From: Candidatus Krumholzibacteriota bacterium | GTDB lineage: Bacteria; Krumholzibacteriota; Krumholzibacteriia; JAJRXK01 | Length of the DNA stretch: 48,421 bases | NCBI GenBank assembly: GCA_024276305.1 | Contig: JAJRXK010000081.1 | Location: forward strand, 1-48,421 | Direction: 5' to 3' | Part shown: positions 11,698-26,791 of the stretch, piece by piece | Layout: every line of letters begins with the position of its first letter | Numbering within the stretch: the stretch's first letter is position 1 | Notes under the pieces: model-generated | The model's database searches: none | What the model saw: the letters and a program-made list of their open reading frames with translations, nothing else | Told to the model about the DNA's origin: nothing | Made by a program: the position numbers and the translations under genes

Positions 11698-12393
11698 ATG
11701 CGACGCGTACTCACGCTCTATTCCACGACAATCGGTAAGAAGGTCGTGATGGCCGTGACGGGAATCCTCCTGGTGGGATTCGTCCTCGGACACATGATCG
11801 GAAACCTCAAACTCTACTTGCCGGCCCACGACGGAATGGCCGCCATCGACCACTACGGTGAGGGCCTCCGGTCATTCGGGGCTCCCTTCCTGGCCCATGG
11901 CCAATTCCTGTGGATCGCCCGCTCGGTGCTGATCCTGGCGGTGGGACTCCACATCTGGTCCGCGATCTCCCTGAAGGTCCGCTCCAATGCCGCACGTCCG
12001 ATCGCGTACAAGCGCGTGGCCTACGAGGACTCGACCCTGGCCTCGCGCACCATGATCTGGGGCGGAGTCCTGCTCCTCGCATTCATCGTCTTTCATCTTT
12101 TGCATTTCACCACCGGCACCATCACTCCGGGCTTCGATTTCGAGCACGGAGCCGTCTTCGCCAATGTGACCGGTGGCTTCTCGAATGTCGGCGTCGCCAT
12201 CTTCTACATCGTCGCGATGGTGGCGTTGGCCATGCACCTCTACCACGGCGTCTGGAGCATGCTCCAGACCCTCGGGGCAAACCACCCCCGCTACAATTCC
12301 TGGCGCAAGAAACTCGCTCTGGCGATCGCGATCATCGTCGCAGTCGCGAACATTTCCTTTCCCGTCGCGGTCCTGACCGGACTGGTGGGCTAA
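11698..12393 (+). CDS. sdhC: Succinate dehydrogenase cytochrome b subunit, b558 type
   Basis: 231 aa membrane anchor with five predicted transmembrane helices and histidines in helices ([34 protein letters not shown]) that can ligate two haems. Length and motifs match the single-subunit, di-haem b558 family found in Bacteroidota, delta-type bacteria and Bacillus, where no SdhD exists. It passes electrons from SdhB to quinone. First gene of sdhCAB; GGGAG lies five bases before the ATG. 32 bp separate it from sdhA. Confidence 0.93.
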
Positions 12394-12425
12394 CCCGATC
12401 TCCCACGAATCGACCGAGGACGACC

Positions 12426-14339
12426 ATGGAACTCGATGCCAAGATTCCCGAAGGACCGATCGCAGAGAAATGGGACCAGCACCGCTTCGAAATGAAGCTG
12501 GTCAACCCCGCGAACAAGCGCAAACACGAGGTCATCGTCGTCGGGAGCGGTTTGGCCGGGGCGTCGGCCGCCGCGTCGATGGCCGAGCTGGGCTACGACG
12601 TGAAGTGCTTTTGCTTCCAGGACTCCCCGCGCAGAGCCCACTCCATCGCCGCCCAAGGCGGAATCAACGCGGCCAAGAACTATCAGAACGACGGCGACAG
12701 CGTGTTCCGGCTGTTCTACGACACGGTCAAGGGAGGCGACTTCCGCTCGCGTGAGGCCAATGTCCACCGCCTGGCCCAGGTGAGTGTGAACATCATCGAC
12801 CAATGCGTGGCCCAGGGCGTTCCCTTCGCCCGGGAATACGGGGGACTCCTGTCGAATCGCTCCTTCGGCGGCGCGCAGGTCTCTCGCACCTTCTACGCCC
12901 GAGGCCAAACCGGGCAGCAGCTGCTGCTTGGCGCCTATCAGGCCCTCCAGCGGCAGATCGGCGCCGGCAAGGTCAAGATGGTGCCCCGCTCCGAATTGCT
13001 GGAGATCGTGATCATCGAGGGCGCGGCCCGCGGAATCGTGGTCCGCGACCTGGTGACCGGTGAAATCAGCAGTCACTGTGCCGATGCGGTCTGCCTGGCG
13101 ACCGGTGGCTATGCGAACGTGTTCTACCTCTCCACGAACGCGATGAATTCGAACGTCACCGCAACCTATCGGGCCTACAAGAAGGGCGCATTCTTCGCCA
13201 ATCCCTGCTACACGCAGATTCATCCCACCTGCATTCCCGTCAGCGGAGACCATCAGAGCAAGCTCACCCTCATGAGCGAATCTCTGCGCAATGACGGGCG
13301 AGTCTGGGTCCCGAAGAATGCCGGCGACACCCGCCCGCCCGATCGGATTCCCGAGAGCGAGAGAGATTATTATCTCGAACGCAAGTATCCGAGCTTCGGA
13401 AACCTCGTCCCGCGGGACATCGCCTCTCGCAATGCCAAGGAAGTATGTGACGCCGGTCACAGCGTGGTGCCCGGCGGCCACGGAGTGTACCTCGATTTTG
13501 CCGATGCGATCGGGCGCCTGGGTCAGAAGACCATCGAAGAGCGCTACGGAAACCTCTTCGAGATGTACGAACGGATCACCGGCGACAATCCCTACCGCAC
13601 TCCCATGAAGATCTACCCCGCCCCCCACTACACCATGGGCGGCCTCTGGGTGGACTACAACCTCATGAGCACGATCCCCGGGCTCCATGTCCTGGGTGAA
13701 GCCAATTTTTCCGACCACGGCGCGAACCGTCTGGGAGCGAGTGCTCTCATGCAAGGGCTCGCCGATGGCTATTTCGTCATTCCCTATACCATCGGCCACT
13801 ATCTCGCGACCTCCAAGCTCGAGAAGGTCGACACCGGCCACGCTGCGTTCCGGGATGCGGAACGCGAAGTGCGTGAAAAGACCGACCGACTGCTGGAGAT
13901 TCGTGGCCGCCGCACCGTCGACGACTTCCACCGCGAACTCGGAAGAATCATGTGGAACAACTGCGGGATGTCGAGAAACAAGGCCGGTCTCGAGAAGGCC
14001 CTCGAAGAAATCCCGCGCCTGCGTGAAGAATTCTGGAAGGACGTCCGAGTCCTCGGCGCGAGCGAATCGATCAATCAGTCGCTGGAGAAGGCCGGACGGG
14101 TGGCCGATTTCCTGGAATTCGGCGAGATCCTGTGCCACGACGCGCTCGACCGCGAAGAATCCTGCGGGGCTCACTTCCGCGAGGAGCACCAAACCGAGGA
14201 AGGGGAGGCGCTCCGCCACGACGAGGACTACACCTACGTCTCGGCCTGGGAATACAAGGGCGTCGGAAACGCACCGGCGCTTCACAAAGAGCATCTCGAG
14301 TTCGAAAACGTTCACCTCGCAACGAGGAGCTACAAGTGA
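12426..14339 (+). CDS. sdhA: Succinate dehydrogenase/fumarate reductase flavoprotein subunit
   Basis: 637 aa, typical of the long SdhA that pairs with b558 SdhC. FAD-binding Rossmann motif [19 protein letters not shown] (38-56), the covalent-FAD histidine H72 in [13 protein letters not shown], substrate-binding region QIHPTC and the [10 protein letters not shown] block are present. It oxidises succinate to fumarate in the TCA cycle on the cytoplasmic face, or works in reverse in anaerobes. ATG at 12426 follows GAGG by six bases. It ends by overlapping sdhB by one base (TGATG), indicating translational coupling. Confidence 0.95.
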
Positions 14340-15094
14340 TGAAGCTGAAGTTGCACATCTGGCGTCAAACGAGCCAAGACGCTCCCGGCGCCTTCGCGGA
14401 TTATGAACTCGACGATGTCTCGCCGGACATGTCCTTTCTCGAAATGCTCGACGTACTCAATGAGCGTCTCATTCTCGATGAGCAAGAGCCGGTTGTCTTC
14501 GACAACGATTGCCGCGAAGGAATCTGTGGCGCTTGCGGCATGGTCATCAACGGCCACCCCCATGGCCCGCAAAAACTCACCACCACCTGCCAGCTCCACA
14601 TGCGCAAGTTCCGCGACGGCGATGAACTCTGGATCGAACCCTGGCGGGCCAAGGCCTTTCCGGTACTCAGAGACCTCATGGTCGACCGCTCCGCGCTCGA
14701 CCGAATCATCGAAGTCGGGGGCTATGTCTCGGTGAATACCGGAGGCGTTCCCGACGCCAACGCGATCCCCATCGGCAAGGGCGTCGCCGATCTGTCGATG
14801 GACGCGGCCGCCTGCATCGGGTGTGGCGCCTGCGTCGCGGCCTGTCCCAATGCATCGGCAAGCCTGTTCACCGCAGCCAAGATCACCCATCTGGGCGTAC
14901 TCCCCCAGGGCGAGATCGAACGCAACACCCGGGTCCAAGAGATGGTGGCTCAGATGGACGAAGAGGCATTCGGACATTGCACCAACCACGGCGAATGCGA
15001 TGCTGCCTGTCCCAAAGGAATCAGCGTGGACTTCATCGCGCGGATGAATCGGGACTTCGTGCGGGGAGTCACCCGGGAGCCCATCACCCGGTGA
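14339..15094 (+). CDS. sdhB: Succinate dehydrogenase/fumarate reductase iron-sulfur subunit
   Basis: 251 aa. The N-terminal plant-ferredoxin-like [2Fe-2S] domain carries [10 protein letters not shown]; the C-terminal domain carries [13 protein letters not shown] and [14 protein letters not shown] for the [4Fe-4S] and [3Fe-4S] clusters. It relays electrons from SdhA to the haems of SdhC. GAGGAG within the end of sdhA is its ribosome-binding site. Last gene of the sdhCAB operon; a GC-rich hairpin follows. Confidence 0.95.
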
Positions 15095-16343: not shown

Positions 16344-16458
16344 CCACCCCGCTCTTTACAGATGCACCCCACACGTCTATAGAATGACCCTGCGGATTCC
16401 TCCGGGTCCCACCCCGAACCCGGCTCTCCCCCTCCCCACCCCGCGACGTTGGAGCGCT

Positions 16459-18315
16459 ATGAGTCTCCACTGCCCAGGACCGGCCGGTGTCCTCTGGCGT
16501 CGCGCCCGGTGCCGTTTCCTATTGCCTACCCTTGCGGTCTTCGCCTTCGCGGCCACCACCGCCCTCGACGCTCAAAGTCAAGACGACCCCGATCCGCGCA
16601 TTCACGTCGTCCGCCGGGGAGAGAGCCTCAGCACGATCGCCCAGCGCTACCACACCACCGTGCGCACCCTTCGCGAGTGGAATGAACTGAGCGGCAACCG
16701 GATTCTGATCGGACAGGAACTCCGGGTGCCCACCGATGGTCGCGAGTACGTGATCGTGCGACGCGGGGATACTCTGGCCAAGATCTCGCGGCGCCATGGA
16801 GTCCCCGTCGATCTTCTGCGTCAACTCAACCGGACTCACCGTGACCGGATCTACGTGGGCCAGAAGCTCAAGCTCCGACCCTCCCACCGAGACGAAGTAG
16901 TCCATGTGGTGGAGCGCGGACAGACTCTCATCGAGATCGCAAAATCTCACGGCCTCTCCCTCGCGGAACTGCGGGAGCTCAATGGCATTCGGGGAGATCG
17001 AATCTATCCGGGACAGAGCATTCGGCTACGTGAGGTCGCTCAGGAGATCCACGTGGTCGAGAGGGGTGACGCTCTGTGGGAGATCGCCCGCGCCTACGGA
17101 ATGAGCGTGGATGCGCTGAAGAAGCTCAACGGCCTGCGGGGCAATCGAATCTATCCCGGCCAGGAATTGCGAATCCGACGCAGCGGCGATCATCCCACTC
17201 CGGACGCGGTCTACGTGGTTCGACGTGGCGATACTCTCGGAGAAATCGCCCAACTCCATCAGATGAGTCTGGCCGAGCTCCGGCGCAAGAACTCCTTGCG
17301 GGGCAATGTGATCCATCCCGGGCAGCAGTTGAAAGTGCGACCTCTTCTCGGCGGTACGGATCGATCCGAGATCGCCACCCTCGAGGAGGTGCCCTGGAAC
17401 GACCTGCTGCCCCGCATCGATGCGGTTCCAGCCATCGCCCTCGAGAATGGGCCTTACTACTACCGCCACCCCACGGCGAAGGTCCAATCGAGTGATCACT
17501 ATCTCGAGGCCCCTACTCGCCGTCCCGCTTCCACCTATGCCCGCGCCGAGGCCCTCTGGAAGGCTTTCGAGAAGAGAGTCGAGAGTCTTGGGTACCTGAG
17601 CCATACTCTCGACGGCTGGCATGTGGTCCTCGATCCCGGACACGGCGGCCTCGATCCGGGGGCCATCGTCGAATCGGTGGATGGAAACGGCAATCCCACC
17701 TATGTGGTGGAAGACGAATACGTCTTCGACGTCGCGCTCCGCACCTACGTTCTTCTCAAGCTCCACGGTGCCGACGTGGACCTCACTCTCATCAGTCCCA
17801 ACCATCTCATTCGAGGAAACGAACCGGCGACGGCGACCTTCGTCCACGAGCAGAACGAGGTATTCCACAGCGGGTCCATCAACCGTCAGAATCGTTCGAG
17901 CAGTTGGCCTCGAGGAGGGCCCCAGGGGTTGAAACGACGACGGGACCTCGCGGCGACCTTCTTCCGCAGTACCGCTCCCGGACGGCGAATCTTCGTGAGT
18001 CTTCACGCGGACAATGCGCCCGCCGCACCCGAAGCCAAGTCGGTGCTGTTCTATCAGGACCGCCGCCGTCGCGATCGTGCGTCGGAACGATTCGCGAAAG
18101 CCCTGCTCCCCGCCCTGGGGGCCGGCTCGCGAGTTCGAGGTCAGAATCTAGGAGTTCTGCGGGGCAATCCGGCCGACGTTGCGGTCCTCATCGAGGTCCG
18201 CAACGTCGCCTATCAGTACGAAGCCTGGGCTCTCCGTTTCGAGCAACTCCGCCAACGCGATGCCGAGAAGATCGTCAAGGGCATTCTCGACTGGGTCGGA
18301 CATCGTTCGGGCTGA
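16459..18315 (+). CDS. Secreted N-acetylmuramoyl-L-alanine amidase with five LysM domains
   Basis: 618 aa. A signal peptide (LLPTLAVFAFAATTALDAQ) is followed by five tandem LysM peptidoglycan-binding modules at roughly 48-92, 96-140, 145-190, 195-238 and 247-292, each with the VxRGDTLxxIA and NGLRGNRIYPGQ-like halves. After a 100-residue linker comes an Amidase_3 (AmiC-like) catalytic domain from about 395. Zinc ligands are the His of LDPGHGG, the Glu of VEDEYVFDV and the His of VSLHADN; the catalytic Glu is in VLIEVRN. It would split septal or lateral murein between MurNAc and L-Ala. The ATG at 16459 has GGAG five bases upstream; an ATG at 16384 is less likely. Confidence 0.93.
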   Translation: MSLHCPGPAGVLWRRARCRFLLPTLAVFAFAATTALDAQSQDDPDPRIHVVRRGESLSTIAQRYHTTVRTLREWNELSGNRILIGQELRVPTDGREYVIVRRGDTLAKISRRHGVPVDLLRQLNRTHRDRIYVGQKLKLRPSHRDEVVHVVERGQTLIEIAKSHGLSLAELRELNGIRGDRIYPGQSIRLREVAQEIHVVERGDALWEIARAYGMSVDALKKLNGLRGNRIYPGQELRIRRSGDHPTPDAVYVVRRGDTLGEIAQLHQMSLAELRRKNSLRGNVIHPGQQLKVRPLLGGTDRSEIATLEEVPWNDLLPRIDAVPAIALENGPYYYRHPTAKVQSSDHYLEAPTRRPASTYARAEALWKAFEKRVESLGYLSHTLDGWHVVLDPGHGGLDPGAIVESVDGNGNPTYVVEDEYVFDVALRTYVLLKLHGADVDLTLISPNHLIRGNEPATATFVHEQNEVFHSGSINRQNRSSSWPRGGPQGLKRRRDLAATFFRSTAPGRRIFVSLHADNAPAAPEAKSVLFYQDRRRRDRASERFAKALLPALGAGSRVRGQNLGVLRGNPADVAVLIEVRNVAYQYEAWALRFEQLRQRDAEKIVKGILDWVGHRSG

Positions 18316-18319
18316 TCGT

Positions 18320-19615
18320 TCAGAAACTCAGACGGATGCGGCCGTAGACGCTGTCGTTCTGGTCGTTCATCCCGAAGAGGGTTCGTGAGTCCTTCCCCTG
18401 GAAGAGATTGGCTCCCGCCGTCAACTTCAGCTGGTCGCTGTAGTCGTAGTCCGCGGTCAACCGCACATAGCTGTCTTCATCCGTAGGGCTGTAGAAGCCG
18501 AAGACACCGAGGGTCAGAGTCTGATAGAGAAGCTGTTGGCGGAGACGCACCGTCAGCAGAGTGCGGTTCTCGTCTTTGAGGAAGGCCTGGGGACCGAATG
18601 CGGCGTCCAACGAGCTTCGGGCCGCGGCATAGTCCTGCATTCCCTCCCAGTAGAACTGCATTCCTCCGGTGAAGTCGGACCACCAGCTCCTCTCGTAGCC
18701 CACCATGCCGCGCCATTCGGAGTTGGGCACTAGAGGATCGACGCCGTCGGGATCGTCCGCCGAGTCGTAGTAGGCCCCTTCGGCCCAAGCCACCCCACCG
18801 AAGAGCGGCCCCCGCAGGCTTCCACCCCATGACCGCAGCTCGGGATAGTAGAACCCCACCGGCGAGGATGCCTCGACCCGCATCCCCAGCGGTGACTTCC
18901 AAAAGCCGACGTAGCCGTAGAATGCGGCATTGATGCTGCCGAAGTATCGGTTCAGTCGCAGCGCGAACTCACCATTGCCCAACTCGGAGGTAGGCAATTG
19001 AGTGGGCACGAAGGCCGGGGCCCAGAAGGCCAACCGCTCGCCCTGGGGAAGGTTGTCCGCCGTGAACTGGGGCGTGTAGACCAGATCCACTCCCACCGGA
19101 AGACCGTAGATGCCCAGACGCACTGCATCGGAGGGCAGCTTCAAGTACTGGTCTTCGCGTCCGATGAAGAAACTGACCCAGTCCTTGGGGAAGAGATCGT
19201 TGATGAAGAGGAGATCTCCCGTTCCCCAGGTCGTGGGCTGGCGCCCCGCTCTCACCTCCAAGTGATCGCCGAGAGCATTGAATTTCACGTATCCCTCTCG
19301 GAGGGTCATCTCTGCCGAACCCTGACGGAGACCATCTTCCAGCGCGTCCATCACGAAGTGGGCCTCCCCAACGTCTCCGTAGAGATCACCCCGGAGCTGC
19401 AGACGGGCTTCCCGCATCAAGAAGTCCTGAGGGCCGGCCCACACCGCGGGCAATTGGCCCGCCGGGACCGAACCCCATTCCGCCGGCACTCCCCCCACGT
19501 CACCGAGGCGCACTGCGGTCCCCGATTCCACGAATCCATGGAGCTCGAGCTGGGCTCGGCTCGCGGCCGGCCAGAGCACCAGGACGAGTCCAACCATCCA
19601 AACGCTGCGTTTCAT
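18320..19615 (-). CDS. Outer-membrane beta-barrel of the MMPL/LolA-like operon
   Basis: 431 aa. Signal peptide MKRSVWMVGLVLVLWPAASR-A, then LELHGFVESGTAVRLG and a series of long amphipathic strands ending in VYGRIRLSF, the terminal aromatic signature of outer-membrane proteins. The REARLQLRGDLYGDVGEAHFV and LREGYVKFNALGDHLEVRAG segments, with RQPTTWGTGD, resemble DUF1302-like barrels that accompany RND transporters and LolA-like proteins; I am not certain of the family name. As the last gene of the operon it probably forms the outer-membrane exit or acceptor. A GGAGGAGG precedes the ATG. Its stop is 4 bp from the convergent amidase stop. Confidence 0.82.
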   Translation of the reverse strand: MKRSVWMVGLVLVLWPAASRAQLELHGFVESGTAVRLGDVGGVPAEWGSVPAGQLPAVWAGPQDFLMREARLQLRGDLYGDVGEAHFVMDALEDGLRQGSAEMTLREGYVKFNALGDHLEVRAGRQPTTWGTGDLLFINDLFPKDWVSFFIGREDQYLKLPSDAVRLGIYGLPVGVDLVYTPQFTADNLPQGERLAFWAPAFVPTQLPTSELGNGEFALRLNRYFGSINAAFYGYVGFWKSPLGMRVEASSPVGFYYPELRSWGGSLRGPLFGGVAWAEGAYYDSADDPDGVDPLVPNSEWRGMVGYERSWWSDFTGGMQFYWEGMQDYAAARSSLDAAFGPQAFLKDENRTLLTVRLRQQLLYQTLTLGVFGFYSPTDEDSYVRLTADYDYSDQLKLTAGANLFQGKDSRTLFGMNDQNDSVYGRIRLSF

Positions 19616-19635
19616 GACCTGTCCTCCTCCGTCAT

Positions 19636-20445
19636 CTACTCTTGGATGTACTCGCGCGGCGGGCTCTTGAGGAATCGTTCGCTGAAGACCTTGGCATCGA
19701 TTCCCACGTTGTAGGAGATGTCCCCGAAACTGAGTTCGGTCACGTTCTTCTTCTTGGGAGTCGACATCCGGCGCTTCACCGCCGTGGTGATGCCATCGAT
19801 CACCTTGATCTCCAGAGTCTCGAAGACCTTTTGCAACCGATCCTTGGAATCGTAGTATTCTTCGCGCAGGATCAACGAGGAGTCCTTGTCGATCCACGTC
19901 AGCTTTCTTGCGAAGTAATCCTTCTTCTTCGGCTTGCTCTCGATCACGTAGGTCGGATGGCCATCGAGTTCCTCTTCCTTCAGGAAGGTGTGAACATCGT
20001 CGGTCCAAGGACGACCACTGACATCCTCGTAGCTGAAGTCCGACCCCACGAAACTGCTCTTCTTGTCGTTGGCCGAAATCGGCTTCACCAAGTCCAGAGC
20101 CGGAATGTAGATCCATCGCGAGTCGTCGGCATCGGGATTCTTCCACGCCATGAAGGTTGTGCGTCGCACGTCGTTGGGCTCGAAGAAATAGACGTAGTAT
20201 CTCTGCTCGCCGCCCTCCTCCCAATCCTTGCGAAGGATGACGAATTTCCGCGTTCGGGTCTTCCCACGTTTGTCGGTGATGCGCATGTCGACTTTGGCCA
20301 CACCGTCATCACCGGGATAGTACATGTTCAAGTGAGCCGTTTTCATGAGCTCGGTCGCATCGGGGGTCTGGGCCCCAGCGATACCGGCCACCCCTACCCC
20401 ACTCACGACGATCATCATCAGAAAGAGTACGAAACTGCGTTTCAT
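19636..20445 (-). CDS. LolA-like outer-membrane lipoprotein-sorting protein
   Basis: 269 aa. Signal peptide (MKRSFVLFLMMIVVSGVGVA, cleavage after AGA) followed by the LolA_like fold: MYYPGDDGVAKVDMRITDKR, FVILRKDWEEGGEQRYYVYF, RRTTFMAWKNPDADDSRWIY and SFVGSDFSYEDVSGRPW. These 'outer membrane lipoprotein-sorting' proteins usually occur beside MMPL transporters and are thought to carry a hydrophobic ligand through the periplasm. GAGGT lies eight bases before the ATG. 35 bp after the transporter gene and 20 bp before the barrel gene, so all three are one transcription unit. Confidence 0.9.
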   Translation of the reverse strand: MKRSFVLFLMMIVVSGVGVAGIAGAQTPDATELMKTAHLNMYYPGDDGVAKVDMRITDKRGKTRTRKFVILRKDWEEGGEQRYYVYFFEPNDVRRTTFMAWKNPDADDSRWIYIPALDLVKPISANDKKSSFVGSDFSYEDVSGRPWTDDVHTFLKEEELDGHPTYVIESKPKKKDYFARKLTWIDKDSSLILREEYYDSKDRLQKVFETLEIKVIDGITTAVKRRMSTPKKKNVTELSFGDISYNVGIDAKVFSERFLKSPPREYIQE

Positions 20446-20480
20446 GAGATCTACCTCACCTTCTGGCCGTGTGCGGCCGA

Positions 20481-22799
20481 TCAACTTTCGGAGCGCGCGC
20501 GACCCGAGATCGTGCGAGCCGGGAAGAAAGACAAGGCCGCAGGCATGGTCAAGAAAGTCGCGCTGCCGCTCACCAGCATGATCGCGAAGAAGAACATACC
20601 CACGGTCACATAGGGAACCAGAGTCGCAAAGAACATCGGCAAGAACCCGAGAGCGATCACGACGATGTTTCGCAGCAGTGCATTTGCCGGCTCGTCGAAG
20701 AAGACGATCATCGCGCGCTCGAAATCTTCGTCCTCCCTGCGGAAGATGTCCCGCGTGCGTTGGAGGAAGTGGATCGCGAAGTCGATCGACAATCCCAGCG
20801 ACAGACTGCTGAGCACCGCAATCGGCATATCGTAGTTTCTTCCCGAGAATCCCACATATCCGTAGATCAGGAGTATCGTCGCGGTCAGAGGGACCATCGC
20901 CAGCACGCCGAGGCGGAAGCTGCGGAACAAAGCGATCATCATCAGCAAGACGACGACGTAGGATCCGGCGAGGGCTTTGCCCATGCCCGATACCATCAGG
21001 TTCTGCCATTCGACGTTGATGTAGCTCAGCCCACCCCACCTCAAGTTCATTCCCTCGGGCATGGGATGATCGCGAACGAATTCCTCTACTCCCTGAATCA
21101 CTTCGCTCACCCGCTGATTGTCGCCCTGGTGCATCTGAATCCAGAGATTGATGCTGTTCTGTCCCGGAGTGATGAACTTGAAGAGATCATCTGGCGACCC
21201 ACCACTCATCTCGTAGAGGAAGAGGTACTGGGCGATCTTTTCCCGGCTCCCTGCGAGTTGATTCGAGCCAGGAGCTCGGTCGAGGAGTTCGTATTGCACT
21301 TTCTTGAGCACATCGACCACCGAACTCACGCCTCCGACATTCGGCTCTTCGAAGAGCGAGGTCTGGAGTTCGTCGGCCCATCGCATCCACTCCGGATCGA
21401 GGAATGCCTGATCCTCGTCTCCGCTCAGACTCAGGTAGGCCAAATAGGTCCCGGCGATGTGTTCGTTCATCACCCGATCCGCTACTCGCAGCGGACTGCC
21501 GGGCTTGAACCAGTTCACCGGATTGTCGTTCACCACGATCTGGCTGACACCGTAGCCGGCGACGACCATGAGAAGACCCAGTCCCACCAGCAGAGCAACC
21601 CGGAAGCGCCGAGAGAAACGATAGATCGCGAAGAGGCGACCAGGAGCCGCAGCATGATCGTCTCGGCGCTGCGCGAAGGACGCCAGCATCCCTTGTGGCA
21701 GGACCATCGCATAAGCGGGAATGAATACCATCGAGAGAATCCAGGCGAAGAACACACCCAGGGCAACGAAGGCCCCGAAGACCTGCACCGGAGGAATGGG
21801 CGTGGCCACCAACGACGCGAATCCCACGATGGTCGTCAGCGAGGTGAAGGCCATGGGCAGGAAGAGATCGTTGACCGTGTGTTCGAGGGTGTCCTCCACC
21901 GATCCCTTGCGATGGTAGTGGGCGTGGATCGAGCTCAGAATGTGAATGCTGTTCAGCACTGCGATCGGGATGAGAAAGATCGGAATCATCGAGCTCATAA
22001 TGTGGACCGTATAGCCCATTCCGATCAACAGTCCCATGGTCCACACCACGGTCACGATCGCCAGGAGCATGGGAGCCAAGACCACCATCGGTTTGCGGAA
22101 GAAATAGAGCATGAGCAAGAAGATGAGGACGAAGGCGGCGGGCGCGGAGTAGGCCATCTGCGAGAACATCGCCGCCCCGAAGGTGTCCTGGGCCACCGGC
22201 TGGCCGGCCAGGAAGTACTGCTCGTCCCCGTGGTCCGCGTCGATCAGTTCCTGGATCTTCCGACCCACTTCCATCGCCACATCCTTGGACTCGAGCGGGA
22301 TGAAGATCGCCAGAGCCTTGCCATCTTCCGACGCCAGCTTTCCCTTGAGAATCGGATTGGACTTGATCTGGGCCAAGACCACCTGAGCTTCGGCATCGGT
22401 CTCGGGGACCGACTCCATCAGGGTCTGAACTCGAATGCCCCCGCCCTCTTGGGGTTGGATGTCGTCGACTTCGCTCGGTGCCAGAATGTCATCCACGATG
22501 ACCCCATCGATGTCGTAGAGGGCATCGGTGATGCGCTGGACCCGCTCGAGGATCTCGGGCGTGAAGACTGTCTGGTCATCGACAATGCCCACGACCAGGA
22601 AATCATGGAGTCCGAACTCCTCCTTGATCGCGGAATGCACCAGCCGCACTTCTTCATCGGCGGGCAGCATGTTCTCGGGATCGGTGTCGATCTTGATCTT
22701 TGGGAATTGCAGACCCGCAGCAATCGTGAGAACGAGGATCAGACCGAGGACCATCCTGGGGTGATGGATCGACGGACGGAGAAGGAGTTTCGCGATCAT
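20481..22799 (-). CDS. MMPL/RND-family transporter
   Basis: 772 aa with the duplicated RND plan: helix 1 (MVLGLILVLTIAAGLQF), a large periplasmic loop, a five- to six-helix bundle, helix 7 and a second loop and bundle. The sterol-sensing/MMPL bundle segments include SMIPIFLIPIAVLNSIHILS and AFTSLTTIVGFASL, and in the second half LSLGLSIDFAIHFLQR. The N-terminus IKIDTDPENMLPADEEVR is the standard one for this HpnN-like group. Proton-driven export of lipids or hydrophobic compounds from the inner membrane is likely by family; the substrate is not known. GGGAG precedes the ATG. It follows the DUF2892 gene by 64 bp. Confidence 0.92.
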   Translation of the reverse strand: MIAKLLLRPSIHHPRMVLGLILVLTIAAGLQFPKIKIDTDPENMLPADEEVRLVHSAIKEEFGLHDFLVVGIVDDQTVFTPEILERVQRITDALYDIDGVIVDDILAPSEVDDIQPQEGGGIRVQTLMESVPETDAEAQVVLAQIKSNPILKGKLASEDGKALAIFIPLESKDVAMEVGRKIQELIDADHGDEQYFLAGQPVAQDTFGAAMFSQMAYSAPAAFVLIFLLMLYFFRKPMVVLAPMLLAIVTVVWTMGLLIGMGYTVHIMSSMIPIFLIPIAVLNSIHILSSIHAHYHRKGSVEDTLEHTVNDLFLPMAFTSLTTIVGFASLVATPIPPVQVFGAFVALGVFFAWILSMVFIPAYAMVLPQGMLASFAQRRDDHAAAPGRLFAIYRFSRRFRVALLVGLGLLMVVAGYGVSQIVVNDNPVNWFKPGSPLRVADRVMNEHIAGTYLAYLSLSGDEDQAFLDPEWMRWADELQTSLFEEPNVGGVSSVVDVLKKVQYELLDRAPGSNQLAGSREKIAQYLFLYEMSGGSPDDLFKFITPGQNSINLWIQMHQGDNQRVSEVIQGVEEFVRDHPMPEGMNLRWGGLSYINVEWQNLMVSGMGKALAGSYVVVLLMMIALFRSFRLGVLAMVPLTATILLIYGYVGFSGRNYDMPIAVLSSLSLGLSIDFAIHFLQRTRDIFRREDEDFERAMIVFFDEPANALLRNIVVIALGFLPMFFATLVPYVTVGMFFFAIMLVSGSATFLTMPAALSFFPARTISGRARSES

Positions 22800-22863
22800 T
22801 TTCGTGCTCCCATGGAGTATCGTGAGATTGGAATTCCAGCTTGTCTCGTGAATGACCGTGGGC

Positions 22864-23118
22864 TCATGGATTGGTCGCGGTCTGCCTCGACGACCGACGC
22901 TCCAAGGCCCGAAGCATGTTCTCCAAAGGACAGAATCCTGTGAAGCTCGATTGCAGAAGATTCACGCCCACGAAGGCGGTCAGGCCCAACCAACGGGGAT
23001 CGACCTTCCAGGCCAGCAGGAGCGAAGCGAGGATGAACACTCCTGCAAAACGCCGAATCTTCCGTTCCATGGGCGACGTCGTCGCGCAGAGGGCCTCTTT
23101 CGGGGAATTCTTGGCCAT
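22864..23118 (-). CDS. DUF2892 small inner-membrane protein
   Basis: 84 aa with two transmembrane helices (RRFAGVFILASLLLAW and RWLGLTAFVGVNLLQSSFTG) followed by FCPLENMLRALE. The CP motif after the second helix is typical of DUF2892, the membrane module also fused to rhodanese in YgaP. Its function is unknown; in several bacteria it is controlled by ArsR-type repressors that sense sulfide or redox state. It is the first gene of the MMPL operon and lies immediately across an AT-rich operator region from an ArsR gene. AAGGAGA eight bases before the ATG. Confidence 0.88.
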   Translation of the reverse strand: MAKNSPKEALCATTSPMERKIRRFAGVFILASLLLAWKVDPRWLGLTAFVGVNLLQSSFTGFCPLENMLRALERRSSRQTATNP

Positions 23119-23277
23119 GACGGGGTCTCCTTTCGAGTCTGAATCCAGCACCGGGTACTCTCCGGGGCCCTTGGGGTATTGACAACTATATCGTTTTGTC
23201 GTTGAATAGCTATATAGTTTTTTATTTGAGCATGTCAACCCGAGAGCCCAGCCCAAGGGGGAATCGAGATCAAATCC
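23119..23277. promoter_or_regulatory. AT-rich divergent promoter/operator with inverted repeat
   Basis: The 159-bp gap between the divergent DUF2892 and ArsR genes contains a strongly AT-rich core at about 23177-23227, in contrast to the GC-rich surroundings. An 8-bp inverted repeat AACTATAT (23184-23191) and ATATAGTT (23212-23219), with half-site centres 28 bp apart, is centred between the two start codons. A TTGACA hexamer overlaps the left arm at 23179-23184. This is the expected place for the ArsR-family repressor to bind and control both operons; the exact promoter hexamers are not certain. Confidence 0.6.
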
Positions 23278-23640
23278 ATGCACCACAAGAGTTTGACTCT
23301 CATCGCGGAGCGGTTCCGGCTCCTGGGCGACCCCCTGCGCCTCGAGATTCTTCACCGCCTCGGGGAGGGTGAGGAGACGGTGACCGCACTCGTCGAGGCG
23401 GTGGGGGCCAGCCAGGCGAATGTCTCCAAACACCTCCAGCTCCTCCGGCGGGCGGGACTCGTCGAACGTCGCAAGGAGGGGCTACACGCCTACTATCGAG
23501 TGTCCGATCCCTCGATCTTTCGTCTCTGCGATCTGGTCTGCGGCAGCATGGCGGCGGAATTCCAGTCGGGGATCGATGCCATCGAGAGTCTGCACCTCGA
23601 AGAATCCCAAAGTTCGGCCCCCGAATCGGGGTCGAAATGA
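23278..23640 (+). CDS. ArsR-family winged-helix transcriptional repressor
   Basis: 120 aa. A winged HTH spans about residues 7-80, with recognition helix QANVSKHLQLLRRAGLV and wing RRKEGLHAYYRV. It lacks the canonical ELCVCDL arsenic motif of helix 3. Instead it has C84 and C88 (FRLCDLVC) in the C-terminal helix, which could form a metal site or redox/sulfide-sensing pair. It sits immediately beside the AT-rich inverted repeat and probably represses its own operon and the divergent DUF2892-MMPL operon. Its stop overlaps the next start by 4 bp (ATGA). Confidence 0.9.
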   Translation: MHHKSLTLIAERFRLLGDPLRLEILHRLGEGEETVTALVEAVGASQANVSKHLQLLRRAGLVERRKEGLHAYYRVSDPSIFRLCDLVCGSMAAEFQSGIDAIESLHLEESQSSAPESGSK

Positions 23641-24086
23641 GCAGGCGAGGCCCAGGAGAGGCGCTTTTCGCACTGGGACAATTCGCCTTCGCGGTGGCCC
23701 TGACTCTGGCCGCCACTCAGACCCGGGCCACGGGAAGCAGTCTTCGGCTCGGTCTCGCCCTGGCGCTGGGCTGGGGTTCCGTCACCCTGGCCCTGGTGGC
23801 TTTCCGGCAGCTCCGCCACAGCTTCCGCGTCGCCCCCTCGCCTCGCCGCGACGGACGCCTCGAGCGCGGCGGAATCTATCGCAAGTTGCGCCACCCGATG
23901 TACGTGGCGGTGCAGACCATGACCCTGGCCCTCCTGCTCTGGCGCAGCTCCGGCTCCCTGCTGGTCCTCGCCGGATTGCACTATCTCTTCTACTGGTCCA
24001 AGGCTCGCTACGAGGAACGACAGCTGATGCGCCACTATCCCGACTACCGGGACTATCGCCGCCAAACCCTGGGGCTCTGGCCCTGA
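23637..24086 (+). CDS. Isoprenylcysteine carboxyl methyltransferase-like membrane protein
   Basis: 149 aa with about four transmembrane helices and the ICMT/PEMT C-terminal signature: GIYRKLRHPMYVA then HYLFYWSKARYEERQLMRHY and YRDYRR. The RHPxY and EE residues bind AdoMet in this family. Bacterial members methylate lipids or small molecules, seldom true isoprenylcysteine. ATGA overlap with the ArsR gene makes them one transcription unit, so this enzyme is likely part of the ArsR-controlled system. Ends 19 bp before the convergent peptidase gene. Confidence 0.85.
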   Translation: MSRRGPGEALFALGQFAFAVALTLAATQTRATGSSLRLGLALALGWGSVTLALVAFRQLRHSFRVAPSPRRDGRLERGGIYRKLRHPMYVAVQTMTLALLLWRSSGSLLVLAGLHYLFYWSKARYEERQLMRHYPDYRDYRRQTLGLWP

Positions 24087-24105: not shown

Positions 24106-26676
24106 TCAACGCAGGAGTGCGTTGAAGAGCAGCTTGTAGGTCCCCTCGGTCTGACCACGCCGTTGCGGACTGAAGGCGAAGAGGACGACCCGTCCACTGC
24201 CGACGGGAATGTCGACCAACGCCGGCCGCCCTGCGAGTTTCTCTGCACCGTGGAGGAAACCCGCCAAGCGAGTCTCGGTCCTGGCATAGGTCGCCACGAC
24301 CTCGGTCTTCTCGGGCCAGGCCAGCGGACGCAGGGTATAACCCGAGGCGAAGTAGAAGGCCGCCTCTTCGGGCATCCCCCAGCTCAGAGGGTGGCTCAGG
24401 TCCAACCTCGCTCGAACCAGAGTTCCGGGGGCGTAGAATTCATTGCGGTCCACTCCGTCGAGGCCCACGACCACCGGCAATCCCAGATTCTCCACCGCCC
24501 AGGGCACCGCGTGGTTGAGGACGATCAACTCGCCCCCGGCCGAGACAAAGGCCTTGAGGGCCGCCCCCGCTTCGGTTCCTCCCAGGCCTCGCCGAAATCG
24601 CTCGGGCCACAGGGCATCCTGAAGGCGTGGCTCTCCCTCGGTCTGAATTCCGGAGCCGAGCTGCGAACTGTCGACCGAAGGCAGGATGACCACATCCATG
24701 CGCTGAGCCAACCGAACTCCATCCTCGGGGCTTGCGAGTTCGGGCTGCCCCGGACGCAGGCGCCGCAGGGAGAAGCCGAAGCGCTCGAGCACCATCCGAG
24801 TCCACCCCTCGTCCATGCTGCCCCCGAAGGGAGCGAAGATCCCGACTCGAGGGGCCCGCACCACCTCCGACCGGCCGGCATCGGATTCTGAAGGGAGTCG
24901 CACTCTCCAACTCTCGCTGCGGATCTCCACTCCGGATGCGCGCAGCTCCTCGGCGCGGACCACGAAGTCTCCGACTTCGCCCTCTTCGCCGTGGCTCAGC
25001 CTTCGGACTTCCACTCCTGCACCCAACATCCGGCACGCATCCCCGAAACTGCGCAGATCCCGGGCGGAGAGCTGCAACCATCCCCGCTCCAGTTCGGGTC
25101 GGTGCCCTTCGGGATCGACGCCGACGGTCACCTGATCGAGACTTCGAAGATCGGTGACACGAAGGACCTTCGCTCCCAGCAAGAGGGGAAGATTCCACGC
25201 CGTGACATCGTAGGGACGGATCACCTCGCCCGCGTCGTCGAGGACCATGGGGTACTCCGGTCGATCCAACATCTCCAGGAGGAAGGGGCGGAAGGGTTGG
25301 TCGGCACGGACGATCCACGCGCCTCCACGCACCGAGCGTCCTTCGAATTCCAGATCGTCGGCCGTGAACCCCACTTCCACTCCCCCGGCGCGCAGAATCT
25401 CGACCACTCGCCGCGCCGAGCCTCGGTCGAGCTGTTGCGAGGCCGGAATGACAAAGGCGTAGGGAGGCTCGGACTGCCCCTTCTGCACCGCATCGCGATT
25501 CATCTGCCAGAAGTGCAGGAGGAGGTCCTCCTTGTGCTGAGAAGCCCAGCGCAGGAATCCACGGGTGAGATCGACCTCGATGTCCATGATGTCTCGCAGG
25601 CGCCACCATCCCCCAGGCCAGGGCTCGAGGAAATTCGTCCGACGGTCGTACTCACTCAATCCGCGTCCACGGGCCTGGAGGCTCCCCGGGGCGAAGTGCA
25701 GAGGCGTCGCCAATCGCGCGCTGGCCACCTCGCTCAGGATTCCCAGCATGTTGTGCCAGAAGGCCGTTGAACGCACACTCCCCGGCCACTCGGCGGTGAA
25801 GATCGTCTCGGTCACGATCCCCCGGTACCCCAGAGCGGTGAGGTCGCTGACCACCTGCTGGCCCGCGGCCGCGAGCTGGCTGTAGACCAAGGGATGAACG
25901 GAGTCGCTGATCGGATCGTCGAAGGGCGGGAGAAAGAGCCGGGGGCCGCTGGTCCCCATCTGGTGCTCGTCCACGATCATCTGGGGCAACCAGTCGTGGT
26001 AGAGGACTCGCGACCAATGAGAAGTCTCTCGGAGGTTGTTGAAGAAACCGTCGCGGTTGTTGTCGTGGCCCGCATAGGGATGGTAGAGATCCAGCGGAGG
26101 AGAGCCCTCGGCAGGCGTACCCTTGGTCTGTTCGTACCACTCCCGCACGATCTCGAGACCGTCGGGATTCATGCAGGGGACGATCAGGATCAGGAGATCG
26201 CGGCGAATCGCCTGTCCTCGAGGGGATTCATCGGTGACGATGCCATAGACCATCTCCAGACTTGCCTGTGACGCCCCCACTTCTGTGGAATGCACCCCGA
26301 GGGAAAAGGCCACGATCGCCTTTCCTTCGGTGGCGATCTTCCGGGCCCGATTCTCGTCGCTTCGATCGACAGCGTAGAGTTCCCGAACCATGCCTCGGTA
26401 GGCGTCGGATCGCGCGATTCCCTCCTCGTCCGAAAGCACCATCATCACGAAGGGACGTCCCTCGGTGGTCGGACCGAGGTCCACCATCGTCGCCCGGTCG
26501 CTCTCCTCGCTGAGATCGCGAAGATAGTCTAGAATGCGATCCCAGCTCAGGAGTTCCCGATCCTGGCCCACCGGATGACCGAAGAATTCCTCGGGGGATC
26601 GCACCTCGGCCGCGACCGAAGTTCCCAGGACCAAGCACAGGATTCCAAGCGCGACCGCGGGGCAGGATCTCTTCAC
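24106..26676 (-). CDS. Large secreted M14-family zinc carboxypeptidase-like protein
   Basis: 856 aa. Signal peptide (PAVALGILCLVLGTSVAA) then an M14 peptidase domain from about residue 40 to 370. Zinc ligands H129 and E132 in GVHSTEVG and H238 in DEHQMG are visible, with NPDG (170-173) and NNRDG (206-210) substrate-binding segments. A C-terminal glutamine-amidotransferase-like region (about 600-856) contains LVVLPSVDSSQL-like and GGELIVLNHA-like stretches. This long form (around 850 aa) is common in soil and FCB bacteria; substrate unknown. Start is GTG at 26676 with GAGGAG six bases upstream, giving a clean signal peptide; the open frame upstream to 26838 overlaps the next gene and is likely non-coding. 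Confidence 0.88.
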   Translation of the reverse strand: MKRSCPAVALGILCLVLGTSVAAEVRSPEEFFGHPVGQDRELLSWDRILDYLRDLSEESDRATMVDLGPTTEGRPFVMMVLSDEEGIARSDAYRGMVRELYAVDRSDENRARKIATEGKAIVAFSLGVHSTEVGASQASLEMVYGIVTDESPRGQAIRRDLLILIVPCMNPDGLEIVREWYEQTKGTPAEGSPPLDLYHPYAGHDNNRDGFFNNLRETSHWSRVLYHDWLPQMIVDEHQMGTSGPRLFLPPFDDPISDSVHPLVYSQLAAAGQQVVSDLTALGYRGIVTETIFTAEWPGSVRSTAFWHNMLGILSEVASARLATPLHFAPGSLQARGRGLSEYDRRTNFLEPWPGGWWRLRDIMDIEVDLTRGFLRWASQHKEDLLLHFWQMNRDAVQKGQSEPPYAFVIPASQQLDRGSARRVVEILRAGGVEVGFTADDLEFEGRSVRGGAWIVRADQPFRPFLLEMLDRPEYPMVLDDAGEVIRPYDVTAWNLPLLLGAKVLRVTDLRSLDQVTVGVDPEGHRPELERGWLQLSARDLRSFGDACRMLGAGVEVRRLSHGEEGEVGDFVVRAEELRASGVEIRSESWRVRLPSESDAGRSEVVRAPRVGIFAPFGGSMDEGWTRMVLERFGFSLRRLRPGQPELASPEDGVRLAQRMDVVILPSVDSSQLGSGIQTEGEPRLQDALWPERFRRGLGGTEAGAALKAFVSAGGELIVLNHAVPWAVENLGLPVVVGLDGVDRNEFYAPGTLVRARLDLSHPLSWGMPEEAAFYFASGYTLRPLAWPEKTEVVATYARTETRLAGFLHGAEKLAGRPALVDIPVGSGRVVLFAFSPQRRGQTEGTYKLLFNALLR

Positions 26677-26791
26677 GAAAACTCCTCGGATGGGGAACGC
26701 TCTCAAGATGACACGGGATCCCCTCGGCGACAAGAATACGAGAACGAGGAATCCTCCTCGCCCTCTTTGGGAATCCAGCGATCTCGGGGAC

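Follow-up and report, generated by a model that had tools for sequence, protein, structure and literature searches.

A candidate thiol- or reactive-sulfur-inducible MMPL export cassette with a YgaP-type membrane protein in a Krumholzibacteriota bacterium

Results

Within contig JAJRXK010000081.1 of a Candidatus Krumholzibacteriota bacterium, analysed here over a stretch of 48,421 nucleotides (the window), four minus-strand genes face two plus-strand genes. The former encode a YgaP-type membrane protein (DUF2892), an MMPL/HAE3 transporter of the RND superfamily, a LolA-like periplasmic carrier and an outer-membrane beta-barrel protein, and the latter encode an ArsR-family repressor and a membrane methyltransferase. 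By a slight balance of probability we favour the reading that these genes form a reactive-sulfur- or thiol-stress-inducible cassette for trans-envelope export of a hydrophobic cargo, for which we infer the inducer, the repression, the direction of transport and the cargo. In the proposed mechanism the ArsR protein, with its C84xxxC88 pair, would repress both divergent operons from an AT-rich putative operator, and would release the DNA once its two alpha5 thiols are modified, most likely by sulfane sulfur (persulfide or polysulfide) or by another thiol-reactive species. The MMPL pump, driven by protons, would pull the cargo out of the inner membrane, the LolA-like protein would ferry it over the periplasm and the barrel would pass it into or through the outer membrane, with the DUF2892 protein as a presumed inner-membrane accessory acting on or next to sulfane-sulfur chemistry. 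In a more specific proposal the cassette is dedicated to reactive sulfur as its hydrophobic cargo (elemental sulfur, organic polysulfanes or persulfidated lipids): the DUF2892 protein would feed sulfane sulfur into the membrane, the pump, carrier and barrel would remove it, and a new class of ArsR would read persulfides through the alpha5 CxxxC. This we consider quite improbable.

Regulator types in the cassettes

The evidence that mainly carries the proposed function comes from the regulators, which are of five types. The first, an ArsR with CxxxC in helix alpha5, is found in the window and in loci L103, L104 and L113; the second is an ArsR-rhodanese fusion (L110, L111, L151, L153 and L155), the third an ArsR with two cysteines at the aligned positions of the SqrR and HlyU pair (L157, L158, L160, L164 and L165), and the fourth another ArsR with a single conserved cysteine (L150, L152 and L154). 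The fifth type (L105-L109 and L112) is an extracytoplasmic function (ECF)-like sigma-70-type factor together with a zf-HC2 anti-sigma factor, whose Hx3Cx2C is the signature of zinc anti-sigma factors that are redox-sensitive; in one family of the window's phylum (L106-L109 and L112) this pair takes the place of the ArsR gene upstream of the MMPL gene. Most of these kinds of regulator are linked to sulfane-sulfur or thiol sensing. Since the types are interspersed on the pump tree, the regulator was probably exchanged several times with its thiol- or sulfur-type input retained.

Conservation of the cassette

A tree of 38 MMPL proteins places the window pump in a 26-row clade, with 100/100 support and a long stem, that spans several phyla. 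Genes for MMPL proteins at E<=1e-120 were present in 12 of 80 genomes of the window's phylum, and sampling around three records gave cassette members from beyond the phylum: 8 of 297 genomes for an Acidobacteria record, 9 of 398 for a Gammaproteobacteria record and 1 of 296 for a Rhodothermus record. The MMPL, LolA-like and outer-membrane protein genes (hereafter the trio) are adjacent in almost every informative relative. Of 30 informative subfamily loci, 17 have an ArsR-type gene next to the pump, as compared to 0 of 16 distant trio loci (Fisher, 7.7e-5); similarly, DUF2892 lies in the cluster in 13 of 28 subfamily loci and in 0 of the 16 distant ones (Fisher, 1.3e-3). Genomes on the Calditrichia side held only 24-28% homologues, with the trio but no ArsR or DUF2892, and served as controls. 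The search of plasmids returned only 21-25% homologues and one closer relative, on pILYOP01 of Ilyobacter polytropus (L120, 4555-10577; MMPL identity 42.5%), where the trio is positioned directly after selD, yedF and a DUF3343 gene, a selenium/sulfur-transfer cluster. In addition, a membrane-anchored rhodanese follows the cassette of L159. Locus L155 contains, in tandem behind its first cassette, a second and partial ArsR-rhodanese/MMPL/outer-membrane protein copy (12052-14501).

Because the same clustering is seen in further genera and phyla, and because the operator core described below is enriched, the arrangement is not one of chance. The initial annotation had described an ArsR-controlled trans-envelope system around the trio with DUF2892 as a genuine part, and the conserved neighbourhoods bear this out: clustering in related genomes, whose absence would have spoken against the initial annotation, was found for five of the six genes. 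It is very improbable that the divergent operons are mere neighbours, the ArsR regulating only itself and the methyltransferase while the export genes are constitutive. Binding of the ArsR to its operator is indeed putative, and the cassettes of L161, L162, L163 and L167 have no ArsR; however, where ArsR does adjoin the pump it does so in several phyla, in divergent and in co-directional layouts and with different ArsR types, and in the window the operator motif sits in the shared gap.

The divergent gap and its putative operator

The listing of open reading frames confirmed the initially annotated order, strands and spacings of all six genes. The minus-strand genes are separated by 64 bp (DUF2892/MMPL), 35 bp (MMPL/LolA-like) and 20 bp (LolA-like/barrel), and on the plus strand arsR (23278-23640) and the methyltransferase gene (23637-24086) overlap by ATGA at 23637-23640. 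The AT-rich gap between the operons covers 159 bp (23119-23277), the DUF2892 gene starting at 23118, and the G+C content of its core is 28% as compared to about 60% in the surroundings. The putative operator (23179-23230) contains direct near-copies, CTATATCGTTTT at 23186-23205 and CTATATAGTTTT at 23210-23229, which are 80% alike, as well as inverted arms, AACTATAT at 23184-23191 and ATATAGTT at 23212-23219. The operator carries the core ACTATAT, a motif that precedes 17 of 60 homologous arsR genes in a non-redundant set; its frequency was 0.8% in control stretches from the same loci and 3.2% in shuffles. A scan of the gap for terminators found none.

The window ArsR and the signal

The 120-residue window ArsR matches HTH_5 and HTH_20 as an ArsR of metalloregulator type, and scores 86 bits on NF033788 (cut-off 55). 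Its only cysteines are C84 and C88; as the initial annotation had noted, the arsenic motif is missing and a CxxxC is present. The protein thus lacks the alpha3 CxC site for As(III) or heavy metals and is not a canonical ArsR/SmtB sensor. In the subfamily alignment C84 is kept in 83 of 87 rows and C88 in 84, both are invariant in a set of 24 rows, and the structural model (predicted local distance difference test score, pLDDT, 86) has both within alpha5, residues 79-112. With these cysteines, an SQANVSKHL recognition helix and the ACTATAT-type operator, the window ArsR belongs to a CxxxC ArsR subfamily delineated in this analysis. When the protein was aligned with SqrR (6o8l) and HlyU (4k2e), the cysteine pair formed by alpha2 and the end of alpha5 was not found, so that it is not a member of the SqrR group; the BigR model NF040642 likewise gave 44 bits against a cut-off of 155.

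The neighbourhoods of homologues of this ArsR suggest what it responds to. Within 6 kb of the regulator gene, 28 of 80 loci have a DUF2892 gene and 21 of 80 have rhodanese-type domains. Further neighbours include persulfide-dioxygenase-like metallo-beta-lactamase (MBL)-rhodanese proteins, MBL-rhodanese-YgaP proteins, transporters (TauE and YeeE-type), and DUF2892 in company with AcrB-type pumps. A close MMPL homologue was present in 0 of 12 tested genomes carrying ArsR homologues, which indicates that the regulator and pump families travel separately.

A response to thiophilic metals, metalloids or organometals has to be weighed here. The alpha5 CxxxC pairs of the dimer would then act as ligands for a soft metal (As(III), Cd, Cu(I), Hg or organotin), and the cassette would export a hydrophobic metal complex or repair metal damage. 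In a sequence similarity network study persulfide sensors (SqrR/HlyU-type ArsRs) have alpha2/alpha5 cysteines, and atypical As(III) sensors hold all of their ligands in alpha5 (PMC10509353). The modelled fold of the window ArsR is equally near SmtB, CzrA and SqrR, YgaV was originally identified as a repressor relieved by tributyltin (PMC9774250), and in L156 a divergent gene next to an AcrB-like pump looks like a component of metal efflux. We nevertheless regard metal sensing as unlikely, if a serious contender, since the window ArsR has two cysteines only and no alpha3 CxC, since the neighbours of its homologues are rhodanese, persulfide-dioxygenase-like, TauE and YeeE genes and not metal genes, and since other cassettes use SqrR/HlyU-type or rhodanese-fused ArsRs. 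Of the redox, sulfide or metal signal first suggested, the conserved neighbourhoods therefore favour the redox or sulfide type over classic arsenic sensing, with metal as the live rival.

The YgaP-type accessory

The DUF2892 gene (22864-23118, minus strand) encodes an 84-residue, two-helix protein that matches PF11127 (YgaP-like_TM) at 6.2e-12 and 45.9 bits (cut-off 25.3) and has a cysteine, C63, in the FTGFCP motif of its second transmembrane helix. PF11127 is its only domain; without a rhodanese domain, it does not qualify as a YgaP sulfurtransferase. The FCP cysteine is kept in 12 of 12 relatives in cassettes. In YgaP, thiocyanate affects the membrane domain near C159 (PMC4730233), to which, going by the FCP motif, the cassette cysteine appears cognate. 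The gene lies upstream of the pump in the window and in L103, between pump and carrier in L111, and after the barrel in L106, L109, L110, L114, L157, L159, L161, L162, L164 and L165. That it changes place yet stays linked argues for a functional tie.

Evidence weighing against a sulfur-responsive cassette

Several observations weigh against the reading that we favour. The window ArsR lacks the alpha2 cysteine (a histidine stands there) of every characterised SqrR-group persulfide sensor, a CxxxC pair within a single helix might be a metal site, and cyanobacterial homologues of the regulator mostly have no sulfur neighbours. The sigma/anti-sigma class points to general thiol or redox stress and not to sulfur alone. 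About half of the cassettes have no DUF2892, or none that was seen, L120 and L156 join the four cassettes named above that have no ArsR, the window's genome has just two rhodanese-domain genes, neither of them in the cluster, and no cargo-specific gene was found. Similarly, a sigma-70-type promoter scan of the divergent gap gave no match. The sampling also sets limits: relatives were found by MMPL similarity with one genome per species, and ten control loci were taken with 1.5-kb flanks, which show a regulator beside the pump and could miss a distal DUF2892.

Pump, carrier, barrel and methyltransferase

The 772-residue pump (20481-22799, minus strand) belongs to MMPL/HAE3 by PF03176 (7e-29, 101 bits against a cut-off of 20.5, in two stretches) and by its place in the subfamily tree; the HAE3 model TIGR00921 matches residues 15-756 with 184 bits, which is below its cut-off of 351.9. 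The proton-relay residue D673 in transmembrane segment 10 is invariant across the subfamily alignment. At the corresponding position in segment 4 the window protein has N283 (LNSIH), and L103 and L106-L110 also have Asn, as compared to Asp (VDSVH) in most other subfamily members; a pump with N283 may run on one carboxylate. Depletion of cysteine in the pump, considered as a sign of sulfur-reactive surroundings, proved not to be subfamily-specific (mean 0.8 versus 1.5 Cys, p = 0.38). The LolA-like carrier (19636-20445, minus strand, 269 residues), whose gene adjoins that of the pump in nearly all relatives, matches PF17131 (LolA_like) at 2.8e-53 and 180.8 bits (cut-off 30) and weakly DUF1329. 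The last gene of the cassette (18320-19615, minus strand) encodes 431 residues with a signal-peptide-like N-terminus and no significant Pfam match. AlphaFold, given 13 orthologues, models it as a barrel with about 18 strands (mean pLDDT 78.7) that is nearest by Foldseek to porins and AlgE (TM to 0.55), and a GRQxxTWGxxD motif is invariant among orthologues in 12 relatives.

The 149-residue product of the plus-strand methyltransferase gene matches PF04191 at 4.9e-11, and the only models that it satisfies are the broad Pfam domains PEMT and ICMT. Its signature residues, RHPxY and YEE, are invariant in the alignment. It falls short of the isoprenylcysteine carboxyl methyltransferase equivalog (36.7 bits, cut-off 160), and naming it MddA, a methanethiol S-methyltransferase, is not supported (17.9 bits, cut-off 270). 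Homologues occur in 5 of 80 genomes of the phylum, and the gene lies beside the cassette only in the window and in a sister species (genome G001). We regard the gene as a passenger that the regulator operon acquired in this lineage, most plausibly, and thiol methylation is as possible for its product as lipid methylation.

These results bear on the export of an envelope lipid (a hopanoid, sterol, glycolipid or similar), in which the methyltransferase would modify the lipid and the sensor would only report the state of the envelope or its redox state. MMPL, LolA-like and barrel families do handle hydrophobic cargo, and the methyltransferase gene overlaps arsR. In Thalassolituus, long-chain alkanes elicit a response of an MMPL protein that includes a LolA-like domain and of the porin-like protein next to it (PMC6304351). 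Lipid export is possible, though on present evidence unlikely: the methyltransferase stands beside the cassette in this genus only, so that the idea of lipid modification depends on a gene particular to one lineage; the cassettes share no recurring gene of lipid biosynthesis; thiol-type regulators are missing from the distant trio homologues; and the HpnN (80 bits, cut-off 752) and BstA (20 bits, cut-off 1400) models fail. The coupling of a membrane methyltransferase to lipid export, as first annotated, is accordingly not upheld, and the analogy with sterol and hopanoid transport stands at the level of the superfamily only.

Two further genes flank the cassette. A plus-strand gene at 16384-18315 encodes a 643-residue protein that combines an N-acetylmuramoyl-L-alanine amidase domain with five LysM repeats, and stops 5 bp from the end of the barrel gene on the opposite strand. 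On the other side, a minus-strand gene at 24106-26703, convergent with the methyltransferase gene beside it, encodes an M14-family zinc carboxypeptidase-like protein.

Discussion

Accounts of bacterial sulfide defence usually feature oxidation, by sulfide:quinone oxidoreductase (SQR), persulfide dioxygenase and rhodanese, together with the export of sulfite or thiosulfate over the inner membrane. That an MMPL/LolA-like/barrel line recurs with thiol- or sulfur-type regulators, apparently swapped several times, implies that under sulfide or thiol stress something hydrophobic also has to be moved over the periplasm. The repeated placement of the cassette beside such regulators suggests a branch of defence against sulfide or thiol stress that is as yet uncharacterised, and it offers a testable partner for DUF2892 apart from rhodanese, while the alpha5 CxxxC suggests a second thiol-sensing architecture in the ArsR superfamily. 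The open-access literature yielded no description of the full cassette, subscription papers being outside the search. Parts of it have been linked to sulfide before. For example, in Azospira suillum H2S raises a DUF2892 transcript about 10-fold along with several RND pumps, and Bar-seq singled out an operon in which SQR is combined with RND parts (PMC5358917). Similarly, sulfane-sulfur-responsive ArsRs adjoin RND pump, TauE and YeeE genes (PMC12423496).

Among known systems, the sulfide-responsive ygaVP operon of E. coli shares with the window an ArsR repressor beside a YgaP-type transmembrane protein with a cysteine in its second helix; it is controlled by YgaV, an SqrR/BigR homologue (PMC9774250, PMC4730233). 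Unlike the window, ygaVP has no pump, carrier or barrel, YgaV has the alpha2/alpha5 pair in place of an alpha5 CxxxC, and YgaP joins a rhodanese domain to DUF2892 whereas the window protein has none. The SqrR/BigR/HlyU group has the same fold as the window ArsR, which lacks the diagnostic pair of cysteines; this pair is present in the third type of cassette regulator described above. BstABC sterol and HpnN hopanoid transport resemble the cassette in moving hydrophobic cargo towards the outer membrane by an RND-superfamily pump, but the window has a LolA-like carrier and a barrel, has no sterol or hopanoid genes nearby, and its pump scores far below the respective model cut-offs. Loci in which DUF2892 accompanies an AcrB-type pump and an ArsR (L028, L045, L056 and L203-L207), partly in the same phylum, likewise set DUF2892 by an RND-superfamily pump and an ArsR, yet their pump is a tripartite HAE1/AcrB-type one with a HlyD-type adaptor and another outer-membrane partner, and the loci from the same phylum also differ in the type of ArsR. 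In L203-L207 (family f5, of the window's phylum), DUF2892 and an AcrB-type RND pump of the TPREEEPQI kind, with a nearby ArsR bearing an LCKTLSN motif and, in some loci, an IspH-like gene in between, represent a second pump class with the same accessory. Finally, the alkane-induced TOL_3187/3188 of Thalassolituus encode the same three functions together, but with the MMPL and LolA domains reported in one protein, and a thiol regulator or DUF2892 is not reported for them (PMC6304351).

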